Source: an uncultured Oleiphilus sp.
GTDB lineage: Bacteria > Pseudomonadota > Gammaproteobacteria > Pseudomonadales > Oleiphilaceae
NCBI GenBank assembly: GCA_913020045.1
Contig: CAJWBE010000001.1
Span: 140,361 to 204,360, forward strand
Length of the DNA stretch: 64,000 bases
Reading direction: 5' to 3'
Positions 11,164-63,489 of the stretch are shown piece by piece; the stretch's first letter is position 1; each line of letters starts with the position of its first letter. The notes below the pieces were generated by a model that saw nothing but the letters and a program-made list of their open reading frames with translations, was not told the origin of the DNA and did no database searches. The position numbers and the translations under genes were made by a program.

Positions 11164-11558
11164 TGGACTAACTCGATATTGGCATGATCGGGCAGTCTCA
11201 TTTCCAGCTGATCACGTGCAACGGTTTCAATTCGAGTTGGCGCGCTCCATGCGCTCTCTTCTAATAGCAACTGAGCCCACTCAAGCTGAAGCTGATCATT
11301 TTGCTCCAGCAGCACCGCATGTTCCGAAAACAACTGACGACATAAGTGAGAGGAATAAACGACACCAATCGCCGACAATAGCAGCACAATCAGCAAACCA
11401 CTTGTGACAAGCACATCCTGAACAGAGACGCCTGCGACGAAACGAACAGAGACCTTTCGTCTTGCCAGCAACCCTTCCAACAGCGCAGAAGGAGAGCGAA
11501 TACTTTGCGATGCTGAACGCTCTATCAACGCCAACAATGTAAGCCAGACGCTATTCAT
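11160..11558 (-). CDS. ftsL: Cell division protein FtsL
   Basis: Small bitopic divisome protein that works with FtsB and FtsQ to activate FtsWI. The 132-aa product has a cytoplasmic N-terminus of about 45 residues, one membrane helix around residues 48-68 (VLVTSGLLIVLLLSAIGVVY), then a periplasmic leucine-heptad helix (QLFSEHAVLLEQNDQLQLEW) and a conserved-looking tail (RIETVARDQLEMRLP). Primary sequence of FtsL is poorly conserved, so the call rests on topology, the coiled coil, and location between rsmH and ftsI. Confidence 0.93.
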   Translation of the reverse strand: MNSVWLTLLALIERSASQSIRSPSALLEGLLARRKVSVRFVAGVSVQDVLVTSGLLIVLLLSAIGVVYSSHLCRQLFSEHAVLLEQNDQLQLEWAQLLLEESAWSAPTRIETVARDQLEMRLPDHANIELVQ

Positions 11559-12492
11559 GAGACACCTTCTCCAGCGTTCGCATCACTGCACTACGTGCCC
11601 GCCCATTACGTGAAATCTCTTCGGCCTTTGGCTTAATGGCCTTACTACTTAAACGAAAATTTCTGACGATATCCTTTTCAAAAACAGGCACGCCCGGTGG
11701 CGGCTCAGCACCTTTTGCCATATCACGCATGAATCGTTTCACCATGCGGTCCTCTAAAGAGTGAAAACTAATCACGACCAAGCGACCACCAACATTAAGG
11801 CGCTTTGCAGCACCCTCTAGCAGTAGCGCCAAATCGCCTAACTCATTATTGATATGGATTCTGATTGCCTGAAAGCAGCGTGTTGCAGGGTGTTTGTGCT
11901 TCTCCCACGACGGGTTAGCATCTTTCACAATTTGCGCGAGCTGGGCCGTGCTCTCGATCGCCCCCATATCCCGCGACTCGATAATCGCAGCAGCAATACG
12001 GCGCGAAAAACGCTCTTCGCCATATTCGAAAAACACTTTCGTCAACTCTTCAGCACTAACAACGGCAAGCCACTCGGCTGCACTCTGCCCAGAACTAGTG
12101 TCCATCCGCATATCAAGCGGACCATCTGATTGAAAACTAAAGCCTCGCTGCGCGTCATCTAACTGAGGGGAAGACACGCCAAGATCAGCCAGAACACCAT
12201 CCAAACCAACACCTTCAAGCGCATCAATTCCAGCACCAACATCAGCGAACGAACCATGGTGAATCGAAAAGCGCCCATCGTTAGCAAACATAGATTGGGC
12301 TTGAGCAATTGCAATGGGGTCCTTATCAATCGCCACTAAACGCCCATCTTCCGACAAACGTTCCAAAATAACGGAGCTGTGACCGCCACGACCAAACGTT
12401 GCGTCCACATAAACGCCACTACCCTTTGTTACCAAAGAATCAACGGCTTCCGTCAACAGGACGGTTTCATGAATAAACGATTGTGTACTCAT
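11551..12492 (-). CDS. rsmH: 16S rRNA (cytosine-1402-N4)-methyltransferase
   Basis: Methylates C1402 in the decoding centre of 16S rRNA using S-adenosylmethionine. The 313-aa protein carries the SAM-binding motif [12 protein letters not shown] near residue 28-39, the helical insertion typical of MraW/Rsm[21 protein letters not shown], and [13 protein letters not shown]. It overlaps mraZ by 4 bp upstream and ftsL by 8 bp downstream, the conserved order at the head of the dcw cluster. Confidence 0.97.
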
Positions 12493-12932
12493 AAAGACAA
12501 GCTTTGCATTTCTTCAGGAATATCATCATCAACATCAGATTCATCCAGCCACTCGAACCAGCGAGACTCACTCCAAAGCTCAAACTTTTTACCTTGGCCT
12601 ACCAGCATTAACTTTCGCTCTAAGCCAGCATATTCTCTTAGCGTTGGCGGAACTAAAATGCGGCCATTTCCATCAGCCTCTAATGGTGTTGCGTAACCAA
12701 TCAAGAGGCGCTGCGCGCGTCGGGCTGCTTTATTGTAGGTAGGAAGCGCTTCAATTTTAGGCAGAATTTCTTGCCATTGAGTTTCTGGATAAACAAGCAG
12801 GCAGCGCTCTTCAGTGTGAGCGGTAACCACAATACGGCCGTCACCAAAAGACGACAGCGACTCACGAATTTTCGTGGGAATCGCCATGCGCCCTTTAGCG
12901 TCCATATTGATAGCGTGACTGCCTAGAAACAA
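12489..12932 (-). CDS. mraZ: Transcriptional regulator MraZ, first gene of the dcw cluster
   Basis: DNA-binding AbrB-like (SpoVT-type) protein that in enterobacteria represses its own dcw promoter. The 147-aa sequence has two tandem MraZ domains: [20 protein letters not shown] at the start and a second half with [19 protein letters not shown]. The start codon is a TTG at 12930-12932, preceded by AGGGG 8 bases upstream; it aligns with the usual MFxGxxxxNxDxKGR start, and no ATG is available before the conserved first motif. Four phased TGG repeats lie just upstream (see operator). Confidence 0.95.
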
Positions 12933-13212: not shown

Positions 13213-13353
13213 TTTGAGTCTGCCGGTAAGCCGGGTTCTGTCTAGGACAGTCATTCATCTAGGCCAATCGTCACCAATTGGCTCAAGCAACCTACCCAAG
13301 TCCAGTGCGAGCCGCACCATAGGACTTCTATTTGGTCTTGCTCCGAGCGGGGT
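13213..13353 (-). repeat. attL-side direct repeat: orphan 3' fragment of rnpB
   Basis: A 141-bp sequence identical at every position to 16641-16781, the 3' portion of rnpB on the minus strand. The 5' part of the RNA gene (about 200 nt, including the rnpB promoter) is missing here, so this copy cannot make RNase P RNA. It marks the left junction of the integrative element. Identity ends abruptly on both sides. Confidence 0.9.
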
Positions 13354-13825
13354 CAAAACTTTTCTTAATCAATAAGTTATGCAAATTAACAACAATTCAA
13401 TCCGAGTGTACCAAGTTATGTACCAACATTGAACGCAAAAAGCCCACCATTGCCTAAGAGTAATCTAGCCTTGAACTTTAACACCCCCAAGCCCCGCATC
13501 GATCAATAAAAAAGGGGATGAGCTAGACCAACCGCCGCTATAGAAGCCACTTACCCTCAAATGCAGGACAATGGTTAAGTGTCAGGCTAGACGATATATA
13601 AAAGACTCTTAAGTTTTCAAATATGCTAGTTACAAGTAAAAACCTAAATTGCGTAGAAGGGCCGGATAAAAATGGTCACACCATAACACCTCCCGTAAAT
13701 CCACTTGGACTTCACAGGCATCATCTTATAAGGTCTGAAGATCTATAACTGTTTGCCTAAACAAACACAATTGATGGGACGCCATACTCATCACTTTATG
13801 TCGATTACGGCTGGAACGGACACTA
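13354..13825. other. Left interior of the element: gene-free, with integrase arm-like repeats
   Basis: I see no convincing gene in these 472 bp. They contain CAATAAGTTATGC at 13370-13382, 17 bp inside the repeat, and TGTACCAAGTTATGTACCA at 13407-13425. The first is nearly the inverse of 16607-16619 and the second nearly repeats 16563-16581 at the other end of the element, so both are candidate integrase arm sites. An imperfect inverted repeat pairs CACTTACC (near 13547) with GGTTAAGTG (near 13573). The segment is AT-rich compared with the flanking dcw genes. Confidence 0.5.
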
Positions 13826-14077
13826 ATGAGAATAAAAAACATAGAAGTTTCTAACTTCAAGGCTATAAAAGAAATCAAACTTCGCAACCTTGAAGATACC
13901 GTTGTAATCGCCGGACCAAACGGTTGCGGCAAATCATGCCTATTTGACGCGATCAGACTTCTAAAGTCTGTTTACGGAGGGTATCAGGAAAATGAGTGGC
14001 ATCAATGGTTTGGGGAGTTTCAAATAAATCTTAATTCTATTAAGGATGACGTTAAACGAATACTGAATCGCCGCTAG
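13826..14077 (+). pseudogene. N-terminal stump of an AAA/SMC-like ATPase (OLD/AAA_15 type)
   Basis: Encodes 83 residues that match only the beginning of AAA-type ATPases of the RecF/OLD/SMC-like group: IKNIEVSNFKAIKEIKL at the start and a perfect Walker A GPNGCGKS at about residues 30-37, followed by the usual helix (CLFDAIRLLKSV). Such proteins normally run for 350-700 residues, with a signature motif and Walker B further on; here the frame stops at 14075-14077 and the next 120 bp contain no continuation I can see. Related ATPases are common cargo of defence islands, but this copy cannot hydrolyse ATP on its own. Probably a deletion relic. Confidence 0.65.
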
Positions 14078-14198
14078 TAAGCCACATATTGAATGAATAA
14101 CATGAGCAGCTCAGGCCCTCCCAAAGCGGACAAGACATTGGGCAAATGTTATTCTTACCCCTTTTAATTATTAAGTAATTTGAAGGGACCTCAATTCG

Positions 14199-15176
14199 AT
14201 GAACATTCTGTTTGTTCGCTTTCTATCTGTCACTTTTGTCTTGGTATTGTTTCTAGCTGGGTGCACTAGCATTTCCATACCCACTCAGGAAAACGCCGAA
14301 ACTATACTTGTTATCCCTAAGCAAACTAAGAATTCAACCATTGAAGAATGGGTAAGGAAGTATAAATTAGAAATATCCCAATATGGAAAAGTCATAAAAA
14401 CTGTATCAGTGCCTGCATCCTCGGATGACTTTCTTCTCGTTGATGACCTGCCTGCCGGAAAGTATCAGATAGAGAAATACATCGAGTACATTGCTTCCTT
14501 TAGATGGCGTCCTGCCGGCGAAGCCGTTAGACAATGGGAGCATGAGGTCTCCCCCATTGAGTTTGAATTGATGCAAAATCAACTAACTGTCTTAGATTCT
14601 AGGTTCGTAGTAGGCCAAACAACAAAAGGAGGATTTGTTTATACAGAGGGATTGTTTATGCCACTGTTGCGTGACCAGCATAAGAGCTTGGTAGATAAAA
14701 TAGATAGTATTGATCAATCAAATTGGACTATTAGAGAACCATCTTACGAGCTTCTCTCAAAAGCTCAGGTTAATTCTGCTCTAGCAGAAAGGAAATCAAA
14801 GCTTAATCAATATATCGAAGCCCTATCAAAAGACGAGATTAGTGAAAGCGACTGGTCAGGTTGGATGGGTCAAGTAAAGTTCGACGATGAAGTAAGCGCC
14901 ATGAATGACAAAGAGCATTATCCCGCTGCGATAGAAGGTAGGTATTTTGAGGGGGTACATCAATATCGCGCAGTATTTAGGCCGTATGCGACCGGGGATT
15001 TTGGGTGGGCCGCTAATTGGGGAATGCGCAAGAAACACTATTTGAACCGAAATATTAGGTATATTGGCCAAGGCTACAAAAGAATTTGGCTTCAAGATTA
15101 TAATGGGCTTGATAGACACCTCTCTTTGAATAGGGACAACTATCAAGCAGTTTGGATAAGGTTGGGAAATGAATGA
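14199..15176 (+). CDS. Predicted outer-membrane lipoprotein, function unknown (element cargo)
   Basis: A 325-aa protein with a lipoprotein signal: a hydrophobic stretch to about residue 21 and the lipobox LAGC with Cys22; the next residues are Thr-Ser, so no inner-membrane retention signal. After that come an extended region of probable beta structure (WVRKYKLEISQYGKV, VDDLPAGKYQIEKYIEY) and a C-terminal part rich in aromatics (GDFGWAANWGMRKKHYLNRN). I do not recognise the family. AAGGGACC lies upstream of the ATG. It is the only intact cargo gene of the rnpB element; its AT-rich codon use differs from the surrounding core genes. A role such as surface exclusion would be a guess. Confidence 0.7.
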   Translation: MNILFVRFLSVTFVLVLFLAGCTSISIPTQENAETILVIPKQTKNSTIEEWVRKYKLEISQYGKVIKTVSVPASSDDFLLVDDLPAGKYQIEKYIEYIASFRWRPAGEAVRQWEHEVSPIEFELMQNQLTVLDSRFVVGQTTKGGFVYTEGLFMPLLRDQHKSLVDKIDSIDQSNWTIREPSYELLSKAQVNSALAERKSKLNQYIEALSKDEISESDWSGWMGQVKFDDEVSAMNDKEHYPAAIEGRYFEGVHQYRAVFRPYATGDFGWAANWGMRKKHYLNRNIRYIGQGYKRIWLQDYNGLDRHLSLNRDNYQAVWIRLGNE

Positions 15177-15223
15177 TTTAATAGAATAGACCTCAACTCG
15201 CGCTGCGGACTCCCCAGCTTTCA

Positions 15224-15281
15224 CTAGACTCTCTTTAGCCAAAGTTGGGTAGAACCCGCTACGCTCTTCAAAAGAGTCTAG
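15224..15281. repeat. 9-bp perfect inverted repeat across the integrase stop codon
   Basis: CTAGACTCT at 15224-15232 is matched by AGAGTCTAG at 15273-15281, separated by 40 bp; the right arm includes the integrase TAG stop. It sits between the convergent lipoprotein and integrase genes. The loop is long and there is no T-run, so a terminator is not clear; it may be a protein-binding site or chance. Confidence 0.4.
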
Positions 15282-16582
15282 TCATATGAGACATCGTCCA
15301 CCACAGACAAAATATCCCTCATCTGAAAGCTATGAGTATATCTATCCGTAATTCCCGCCCCACTCTTTTCATGACCGACCACCTGCTGAACAAGCGGAGT
15401 ACTAGCCCCCTTAGACCTAGCTTTCGTAATAAATGTATGCCTAGTCGAGTGAAACACAATCCTCTCCCCTAAGTCATTTTCCTGCTGATCCAACAGGGAA
15501 CCGAAATTATCAGTTACTCTATTTAAGTTCTGTGCAGCAATTGGAAAGATTAGGCCATCCCCCCTACCTATCCATGAGAGTAAGCCAGCAGAAACCAACT
15601 TATTATGAACGGGGATCATTCTCCTTGCAGCCTTAGTCTTTCCGCTACGAATAACGAAGTAACTACGCCCGGTATCGTCACACAAACTAAAATCACAAGA
15701 CCTCAAAGAAGCAATCTCAGAACGCCTCGCACCTGAATAGACAGCAATCATTAGGAACCACCAAAACCACTTAGGTTTAGATTGAGCTCGAAGCAGCACA
15801 TTTCTGACTTGAGCGTTAGTCAAGCTCGCATAACGACTGTCCTCAACTTCCCACCTCAAACCATCTGTAGGAGAGCGCTCAAGAGCGTCCAGTTCACGAA
15901 CGAGATAGGAGTTGAAAATACTCTGAGCCAGCTTCAGGTGCTCCTTCACTGATTTACTAGAGAGCAAATCTTCCTCTGGTATATCCATTTGAACAATACG
16001 CTTTAACGAAACACCTCTGTACGGGGATTTATTCCTTAATGGTAAGGCAGCAATAGAGGTCAACGCCCTCTTCAGGTCCCCCTTAGAAATACTTTTCACA
16101 GAAACATCTCCCAAGAAGAATAAAAGGGTATCAAAGGTGCGTTGATTTTGATCTGTACGTCGCGGGTTCCATTGCTTCCATCTAACGAAATCTTGCCATA
16201 TGACGGACAATTTTGGGGCAGCCGTACCAATGTCCGAATCTTTAGTGGTTCTAACATCCCGAGAGTGATCCGTAGATTTCAAAACATCAAATTTAGATTT
16301 AACCCAATCCGCAAGCTGATGACTAAAGTCAGATAAAAGACCATAGATCTCCCCTATTTTTTTCTCGTCTGTACAGACTTTAAGGATCTTAATAAACGGG
16401 AGCTTTGCATTAACCATAGCAATAGCATCTGAAAACGAATCAGTGCGGAGACTACGCTTTAACTCAGCAGGCAGCCGAGGGCATAATTTTCGAATATGAA
16501 GGGGTAACGCGTAACGAAAGTAGAAGGTGCGACCACGCAAGAAAACGAAAGGGTGATCACTCTGTACCAGTTTATGTACCAT
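15278..16582 (-). CDS. Tyrosine recombinase/integrase of the rnpB element
   Basis: Site-specific recombinase expected to integrate and excise the element. The 434-aa protein has an N-terminal arm-binding/SAM-like region (residues 1-150), a core-binding region, and a C-terminal catalytic domain in which the expected residues are present: Arg286 (SGARRSEI), a Lys in the GKTK hairpin (315/317), His378 and Arg381 (HSTRHTF), His404 (VVGHEK) and nucleophile Tyr415 (ITDRYTH). The first motif LRGRTFYFRYALP is typical of integrases of chromosomal islands. Start is ATG at 16582, with GGAG about 11 bases upstream, 58 bp from the rnpB end. Codons 1-7 overlap one of the attP arm-like repeats. Looks intact. 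Confidence 0.93.
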   Translation of the reverse strand: MVHKLVQSDHPFVFLRGRTFYFRYALPLHIRKLCPRLPAELKRSLRTDSFSDAIAMVNAKLPFIKILKVCTDEKKIGEIYGLLSDFSHQLADWVKSKFDVLKSTDHSRDVRTTKDSDIGTAAPKLSVIWQDFVRWKQWNPRRTDQNQRTFDTLLFFLGDVSVKSISKGDLKRALTSIAALPLRNKSPYRGVSLKRIVQMDIPEEDLLSSKSVKEHLKLAQSIFNSYLVRELDALERSPTDGLRWEVEDSRYASLTNAQVRNVLLRAQSKPKWFWWFLMIAVYSGARRSEIASLRSCDFSLCDDTGRSYFVIRSGKTKAARRMIPVHNKLVSAGLLSWIGRGDGLIFPIAAQNLNRVTDNFGSLLDQQENDLGERIVFHSTRHTFITKARSKGASTPLVQQVVGHEKSGAGITDRYTHSFQMRDILSVVDDVSYD

Positions 16583-16619
16583 ATTTTTACAGACTCCAAA
16601 AAAGGCGCATAACCTATTG
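16563..16619. promoter_or_regulatory. Right-end arm-like repeats of the element
   Basis: TGTACCAGTTTATGTACCA at 16563-16581 matches 13407-13425 at 17 of 19 positions, and GCATAACCTATTG at 16607-16619 is the inverse of 13370-13382 with one mismatch. Joined in a circular form, these would lie on both sides of the 141-bp core, as arm-type integrase sites do in attP. Assignment as integrase sites is inference from position and symmetry. The region must also hold the integrase promoter. Confidence 0.5.
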
Positions 16620-16640
16620 AAATCAATGAGTAAAAATAGT

Positions 16641-16781
16641 TTTGAGTCTGCCGGTAAGCCGGGTTCTGTCTAGGACAGTCATTCATCTAGGCCAATCGTC
16701 ACCAATTGGCTCAAGCAACCTACCCAAGTCCAGTGCGAGCCGCACCATAGGACTTCTATTTGGTCTTGCTCCGAGCGGGGT
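16641..16781 (-). repeat. attR-side direct repeat inside intact rnpB
   Basis: The second copy of the 141-bp repeat, forming the 3' 40% of the intact rnpB gene. Identity with 13213-13353 is complete, and stops after the GAGCGGGGT sequence, where the rest of rnpB continues only in this copy. Confidence 0.9.
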
Positions 16782-16982
16782 TTACCATCGCCATGAACTG
16801 TTGCCAGTCATGCGGTGCGCTCTTACCGCACCTTTTCACCCTTACCAACCGAAGCTGGCGGTTCACTTTCTGCTGCACTTTCCGTAGGCTCACGCCCCCC
16901 AGGGGTTACCTGGCACTCTGCTCTGCGGAGCCCGGACTTTCCTCTTAACACAAGGTTAAGCGACTGCCTGGCAGACTCAAGT
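16641..16982 (-). ncRNA. rnpB: RNase P RNA (bacterial type A)
   Basis: Catalytic RNA that trims the 5' leader of precursor tRNAs, with protein RnpA. On the minus strand the ends pair to form helix P1 (5' TTGAGTCTGCC with 3' GGCAGACTCAA). Conserved blocks are in order: GAGGAAAGTCCGGGCTCC and CAGAGTGCCAGGTAACCCC near the 5' end, GGGTGAAAAGGTGCGGTAAG and the cruciform segment in the middle, ATGGTAAACCCC, then GACAGAACCCGGCTTACCGG at the 3' end. The last 141 nt are duplicated at the other side of the integrative element, so the 3' part is at least partly element-derived. End points are accurate to a few bases. Confidence 0.95.
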
Positions 16983-58053: not shown

Positions 58054-58061
58054 GTTGCTCT

Positions 58062-58237
58062 GCGTCCTGGAGTGTTAGCCAGCTAGATATGTCCTCGAGC
58101 CGATACTAATACCCAGGTAATTATCCTGGCTAATGTGTGCAAGTCCCTCTCGAAGGGAAAGCCTAATTTAGTTATGGTAATCACCACCTTGAGCTTTCGG
58201 GTTCAAGGCCCTATCCGGCAGCGGCATTTTGGGACGC
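58062..58237 (+). ncRNA. ssrS: 6S RNA
   Basis: Regulatory RNA that binds sigma-70 RNA polymerase in stationary phase. Ends pair (GCGTCC at 58062 with GGGACGC at 58231-58237). Conserved pieces match E. coli 6S: CTCGAGCCGATACTAATACC near the 5' side and CACCTTGAGCTTTCGGGTTC and CGGCAGCGGCATTT near the 3' side. Between zapA and the 5-formyl-THF cyclo-ligase gene, the standard order. Ends accurate to a few bases. Confidence 0.93.
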
Positions 58238-58311
58238 TCTTCTTTATCCGCTTCTGTTCAGCACAAACGTAAACGTTAGACTCCTGCTTCGAAGCACTTC
58301 CAGAAAATAAA

Positions 58312-63373: not shown

Positions 63374-63489
63374 GCCTGACGATGACCTACTCTCACATGG
63401 GAACTCCCACACTACCATCGGCGATGCATCGTTTCACTTCTGAGTTCGGGATGGGATCAGGTGGTTCCAATGCTCTATGGTCGTCAGGC
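63374..63489 (-). rRNA. rrf: 5S ribosomal RNA
   Basis: 116 nt on the minus strand, from GCCTGACGACCATAGAGCAT to the pairing end ATCGTCAGGC. Contains GAACTCAGAAGTGAAACG and the closing TGTGAGAGTAGGTCATCG, as in proteobacterial 5S. Last RNA of the rRNA operon. Confidence 0.97.

Follow-up and report, generated by a model that had tools for sequence, protein, structure and literature searches.

Two copies of the rnpB 3′ end enclose an integrase gene

We analysed a 64,000-nt stretch of DNA (the window) from the 3.70-Mb, 67-contig genome of an uncultured Oleiphilus sp., in which a 3,428-bp segment carrying a tyrosine integrase gene lies between rnpB, the RNase P RNA gene, and mraZ (Table 1). The segment is marked out by an exact 141-nt direct repeat, whose copies are 100% identical and start 3428 bp apart. 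Searched with the RNase P RNA model RF00010, the whole genome gave two matches, both at this locus and one of them full-length, so that a structured RNA gene stands complete on one side and as a 3′ fragment on the other. The integrase gene, of which the host genome has a single copy, lies inside the repeats; it follows rnpB at a distance of 56 nt and has the same orientation. These observations confirm the perfect 141-bp rnpB-end repeat around a complete tyrosine integrase that a first-pass annotation of the window had reported. The GC content is 41.9% within the segment, against 49.2% and 47.6% in its flanks, and the window holds no tRNA that could have been the target. We conclude, with a probability of about 0.86, that the segment is an integrative element inserted near the 3′ end of rnpB by its own lambda-type tyrosine integrase, with rnpB left whole.

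Table 1. Features at the rnpB locus, with window coordinates, strand and basis of each assignment
Feature	Position	Strand	Basis or remark
rnpB, complete class-A RNase P RNA	16639..16979	-	RF00010 325.7 bits, full model 1-367
Right 141-bp repeat copy, 3′ end of intact rnpB	16641..16781	-	identical to left copy
Left 141-bp repeat copy, detached rnpB 3′ end	13213..13353	-	RF00010 100.1 bits
Predicted crossover core, right copy (CTTACCGGCAG)	16648..16658	-	position equivalent to E. coli CTTATCGGTCAG
Predicted crossover core, left copy	13220..13230	-	by equivalence with E. coli junctions
IHF-like site (TTTCAATAGGTTA) between core and right arm	16610..16622	-	alignment read by eye
Predicted RNA hairpin holding integrase Shine-Dalgarno (GGAG, 16594-16597)	16592..16624	-	folding prediction
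Right predicted arm-type site GGTACATAAACTGGTACA	16563..16580	-	just inside integrase start codon
Left predicted arm-type site GGTACATAACTTGGTACA	13407..13424	-	exact match to motif
Tyrosine integrase, 434 aa	15278..16582	-	PF00589 (9.9e-14), PF20172/DUF6538 (8e-8)
Cargo, 325-aa lipoprotein-like orphan	14199..15176	+	sole database match an identical protein; weak PF17660 0.0018, below cut-off
Remnant of fused PARIS AriAB, 83-aa open reading frame	13826..14077	+	PDLC02981 4.1e-31, profile 1-80/694
mraZ, native gene downstream of rnpB	12489..12932	-	after rnpB, no integrase between, in 11/11 relatives

Relatives of the host have an empty site

Gene order was checked in four relatives of the same genus and seven of the same family, the six same-order genomes of the rnpB search below being left out. 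In 11/11 of these relatives a single rnpB stands with rsmI upstream and mraZ downstream and without any integrase match, which bears out both the empty site that the first-pass annotation had proposed to look for and its view that the element interrupts an otherwise conserved rnpB-mraZ order. In a search of 19 genomes, the host's own included, rnpB was found in 18, and the window's genome alone had two matches.

Most well-matched relatives of the integrase lie beside rnpB

Single-sequence pattern scans of genome and viral contigs returned no relative of the integrase; alignment-based scans succeeded. A profile built from 31 relatives led to 41 loci in GTDB genomes, 20 of them well matched (L027-L046). 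Left out were weak, short integrase matches (L048-L067) and one broken integrase outside the 20 (L047); among the viral-contig loci, L068 alone was inspected. At 13 of the 20 well-matched loci (L027-L033, L036, L037, L038, L040, L044 and L046) the integrase lies directly downstream of a full-length rnpB on the same strand, a count in which L039, whose sequence begins inside the integrase so that its target is invisible, figures as not at rnpB. Two further rnpB-adjacent integrases were found in G080 and G290. Among 5426 E. coli genomes 19 matched, all 19 at rnpB, with a query that included one base of rnpB. The neighbours of most of these integrases are those that the first-pass annotation had anticipated, and its reading of the locus as an rnpB-specific integrative element is supported.

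The integrase tree places the window in a 12-row clade (support 100/99) with ten rnpB and two other targets. Mapped on this tree, the rnpB label needs 3 changes compared with 5.5 in shuffles, and 2 of 500 shuffles were as low. The integrase is rare near its host: 5/293 genomes of the order match at 1e-30 and 2/369 of the class at 1e-40, the host's own included in both counts, and the other match in the class is a fragment at a contig edge.

Other surroundings were seen among the remaining relatives. In the distant relatives L041 (Pantoea) and L043 (Enterobacter) the integrase directly follows a thiamine pyrophosphate (TPP) riboswitch, which is repeated at the far end, 87 nt exactly and 135 nt at 82% identity (L041:9813-9914, 15989-16075; L043:109-203, 11407-11539). 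Both integrases are placed where the riboswitch could control them, and L043 also holds GGTACA arm repeats. In an Oceanospirillaceae metagenome-assembled genome the broken integrase relative of L047 (L047:9535-9631) follows a 4.5S signal recognition particle RNA gene, with no RNA repeat within the locus. No RNA family match adjoins the integrase in L042 or L045. We also considered L034 as an rnpB-like secondary site, since it shares GCTTATCGGCGAACTC with its own rnpB (the sole two copies in that genome), but the palindrome there may be an assembly artefact and we set this candidate aside.

The exchange maps near the end of rnpB

The position of the crossover is best seen in E. coli. In 4/4 occupied E. 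coli genomes examined the intact rnpB ends in AGCTTCAACT, and AGTTTCACCT is found at the empty K-12 site and in the detached copies of the three genomes whose far end was found. K-12 repeats the rnpB tail downstream at a spacing of 113 nt, and although it is uncertain which native copy corresponds to the detached one, the sequence is the same. At the far end, L021 and L110 are homologous to rnpB from CTTATCGG onwards, and L108, with mismatches, from a few nucleotides before that point. These junction features place the exchange in E. coli within CTTATCGGTCAG or right at its edge, 9-20 nt from the end of the gene. In all four occupied genomes the element's tail GGTCAGCTTC pairs without mismatch, as its exact complement, with the 5′ end of rnpB, GAAGCTGACC, so that the P1 helix would be restored by insertion; in K-12 one position of this stretch is a G-U pair.

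By analogy, the exchange in the window probably took place in about 11 bp near the rnpB 3′ end and not across the 141 bp. The left repeat copy would then probably consist of the element's own rnpB piece (13231-13353), the core, and a native tail (13213-13219), a split that follows the E. coli junctions, and the last few nucleotides of the intact rnpB were probably supplied by the element. Marine elements agree with this placement: the repeat copies differ 9 nt from the end in G705 and G698 and 3 nt from the end in G706, with 0-1 further differences upstream.

Predicted arm-type motifs and an IHF-like site lie inside the element ends

Just inside each end of the element, in the same orientation, lies one copy of GGTACA-N6-GGTACA, and these are the only two in the 3.70-Mb genome; at the left end, 0/2000 composition shuffles gave a motif as good. 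Across the order, at least one match occurs in 152/390 genomes. A chance match is thus common, and it is the placement of the motif, not its presence, that counts. Marinomonas G184 likewise has exactly two matches, both inside its element. In the nine marine elements whose left end could be seen, the pair is present at the left (0-1 mismatch) in seven and at both ends in six. Shewanella has the motif before the predicted integrase start, and repeats of the GATACA type are found just within the far end in the elements of E. coli and Rahnella. We predict from sequence that these pairs are arm sites of the integrase. In the marine clade the right arm copy spells the integrase start M-V-x-x-L-V, and this overlap may account, at the DNA level, for the near-invariance of V2, L5 and V6. 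Between the core and the right arm, TCAR-N4-TTR, which resembles the IHF consensus, recurs upstream of the integrase start in 12/12 aligned rows.

The integrase is open over its full length, and R286, K315, H378, R381, H404 and Y415, which we take to be its catalytic residues, are invariant in the alignment of 31 relatives. The predicted strands and helices of its N-terminal part resemble an arm-binding fold described in PMC8138268. Structural alignments gave no N-terminal match to known arm-binding domains, though they start at residue 88 or later and so barely test that segment. A phage origin was considered and rejected, as searches gave weak matches only, covering 41% of the query, in 4 phage records.

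Folding predictions have the Shine-Dalgarno tract of the integrase gene paired, with a probability of at least 0.98, in 12/12 sequences, and 3-27 of 300 shuffles scored as high. A combined p of about 1e-7 overstates the significance, because the sequences are related (L027 and L112 nearly so) and only base composition is preserved in the shuffles. No terminator-like site was found between rnpB and the integrase gene.

Cargo and defence genes

The first-pass annotation had counted one intact cargo gene. That gene is the orphan at 14199-15176, and an N-terminal AriAB fragment had been overlooked: its 81 residues share 54% identity with an AAA ATPase over 81 aa, and the remaining ~610 profile positions of a full-length fused AriAB are absent. 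The element had also been called unusually small; its small size probably reflects loss of cargo, because the AriAB gene is truncated and the related element of G698 reaches ~30 kb. Scans of the three main proteins against Pfam, NCBIfam and PADLOC gave no match to an excisionase, transfer or other mobility function, and no phage structural, replication or conjugation gene was found among these three proteins, the remaining short overlapping or antisense open reading frames being outside the scan.

When selected open reading frames of 11 elements were scanned, seven elements had a PADLOC match at 1e-10 or better: the window (AriAB fragment), L033 (Hp1, Hp2), G698 (type I restriction), G705 (ThsB-like, from the left element end, which alone is visible), L040 (LmuA, LmuB), L109 (cyclase and 2TM effector) and L038 (PDC-M40B). 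L031, L032, L036 and G080 had none at this threshold. Elsewhere, the window also holds genes for 6S RNA (58061-58239) and 5S rRNA (63374-63488), with 23S rRNA at the window end.

Marine elements carry a long piece of rnpB

The length of rnpB sequence at the far end sets the marine elements apart: it is 97-175 nt in nine of them, the window included, 53 nt in G080, and 19-27 nt in Shewanella, E. coli, Siccibacter and Rahnella. Its 5′ limit varies among elements, and the 11-bp core does not require it. The piece is 95-100% identical to the intact rnpB of its own host in eight marine elements and 86% in G700, and in 8/9, out of a panel of 57 rnpB sequences, that of the own host is the nearest to it; for L032, siblings are nearer than its own gene. 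As this panel has same-genus genomes for the window and L032 only, the likeness shows little for the other elements beyond membership of the same host group. The matching piece would be accounted for either by its homogenisation with the intact rnpB or by recent movement of the element inside one species.

Two loci show more complex arrangements. The detached rnpB end in G705 (L112:3478-3852) is followed by a further right end and by the beginning of one more integrase gene, which suggests a tandem array of elements, and in G700 (L115, reverse complement, 1695-1832) extra short copies of the rnpB end between rnpB and the detached block suggest successive insertions.

Alternative explanations

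If the crossover fell close to the 5′ boundary of the 141-bp repeat, the element would supply all of the last 141 nt of the functional ribozyme and the detached copy would be fully native. An element replacing the 3′ part of the gene would give the pattern seen in Marinomonas profundimaris (L032:9597-9945), where the intact rnpB differs from the detached copy at 8 sites; at these sites the detached copy is normal, matching 25-30 of 30 relatives, and it equals one sibling at 174/174 positions. However, each of the 8 differences is a transversion, and on inspection by eye they break up a helix, so that sequencing error or a damaged ribozyme is possible, and we rejected this locus as proof that the element supplies 141 nt. 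The boundaries also speak against such a crossover: the 5′ limit of the piece ranges over window-rnpB positions 164 to 245 in the nine marine elements and lies at 287 in G080 and 322 in Shewanella, whereas the 3′ limit is fixed at the gene end; the E. coli junctions fall in the last 20 nt of rnpB; and the distance from the rnpB end to the integrase is nearly constant, 51-63 nt in 9 rows of close relatives (up to ~300 nt in L044). We regard a 5′-edge exchange as improbable. A perfect 141-bp repeat could also arise if homologous recombination duplicated a segment of rnpB and the integrase were present by chance, but the same integrase family occurs on the same side and in the same orientation at the same RNA gene across many genera, and the arm sites at both ends in 6/9 marine elements are a further point against it; we give this explanation almost no credence. 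That the locus arrived as an integrative element and is now a fixed, decaying remnant is a serious possibility, to which we give somewhat under even odds. It would fit the cutting of AriAB to its first 81 residues and the lack of a recognised transfer or excisionase gene in the three proteins scanned, but the integrase is open over 434 aa with its invariant residues kept, both arm sites are exact and the att copies are identical.

Several points weigh against insertion near the rnpB 3′ end by the element's own integrase. Neither excision nor a circle was observed. For the window, the crossover position is taken from E. coli, whose integrases are only ~36% identical and whose elements hold only ~20-27 nt of rnpB, and an 11-bp core leaves the 141-nt identity unexplained. 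In G705, G706 and G707 the two element ends lie on different contigs, and that they belong together is inferred. No arm pair occurs at the left or far end in L031 and G700, or at the right end in L036 (G707) and G700. The hairpin in the window is unremarkable by energy (z only -1.44), and the IHF-like bases also pair within it. Lastly, L034 and L035, in the window's own clade, sit away from rnpB. The first-pass annotation had named close integrase relatives beside unrelated genes as evidence against rnpB specificity; such placements are found in these two and in the distant L041 and L043, and not in the other 10 of 12 clade rows.

A model for insertion at rnpB

We propose that the integrase recombines the element near the rnpB 3′ end, probably shifting the original gene end 3.4 kb downstream. 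The catalytic half of the integrase would bind the core in the rnpB end and its N-terminal DUF6538 domain the GGTACA pairs, with IHF bending the DNA between core and arm sites. After integration, the element's last few nucleotides would complete rnpB, including the 3′ strand of the P1 helix. The integrase gene may lie in the path of read-through transcription from rnpB, and the hairpin over its Shine-Dalgarno sequence may limit its translation. A PARIS defence gene would once have been carried and since mostly lost. Mobility of the element, arm binding and the role of the hairpin are what we infer from these features.

A more far-reaching version can be put forward, which we consider rather doubtful: an integrase lineage dedicated to RNase P, whose marine members keep a spare 97-175 nt of rnpB matched to the host by branch migration or gene conversion, rewrite the ribozyme end whenever they insert, and couple expression of the integrase to read-through from rnpB via the hairpin.

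Relation to known elements

The match in E. coli ECC-1470 carries, between the integrase and yhaC, a gene for flagellin and another annotated FliC. PMC5422975 places FlkA and a FliC repressor on GI10 of ECC-1470 and states that unilateral phase variation can be elicited by the islet; judged by strain and gene content, the rnpB element of ECC-1470 fits this flk flagellin islet, for which Feng 2008 and Liu 2012 are cited. The main text of PMC5422975 contains no mention of rnpB, and that of PMC10121019 none of yhaC or garK. The flk islet resembles the window's element in having a homologous integrase directly after rnpB and, in the relatives L021 and L108, GATACA repeats inside the far end that correspond to the window's GGTACA arm sites. 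It differs in its integrase (~36% identity between the window and a close E. coli relative), in its cargo of a flagellin and a second flagellar gene, in its size of 7.5-9.2 kb in three genomes, and in having only ~20-27 nt of rnpB. Loss of the flk islet is reported to occur by excision. As a side observation, the 4.8-Mb record NZ_OL790696.1, listed with plasmids, has a match to the rnpB region of K-12 and resembles an E. coli chromosome.

The element shares with tRNA and tmRNA islands (the Islander/TIGER class) an integrase beside the 3′ end of an RNA gene, a restored gene and a detached 3′ fragment at the far end, but its target is rnpB. PMC12424338, which tallies tRNA/tmRNA, coding and intergenic integration sites, names no rnpB class, and we found no description of rnpB as an integration target in the titles and abstract starts of the literature searched. 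Compared with the lambda integrase and attP, the window has no recognised excisionase or phage gene, and sequence identity in the structural alignment is 13%. The likeness to PARIS (AriAB) is limited to fused-profile positions 1-80, the rest being absent.

This kind of element is already established, and we did not find the rnpB specificity of its integrase lineage described in the literature searched. What is added here is a probable exchange region of ~11 bp, predicted paired arm sites with an IHF-like site, the PARIS remnant and other defence cargo, and the long marine piece of rnpB. The predicted att sites are defined to within a few bases and hence are directly testable. An E. coli islet tied to flagellar switching is now linked to marine elements with phage-defence genes, and rnpB, essential in nearly all bacteria, can be counted among the well-supported targets of integrative elements across several gammaproteobacterial families. 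Surveys that are built only on tRNA and tmRNA sites could overlook a hotspot with defence genes at rnpB.

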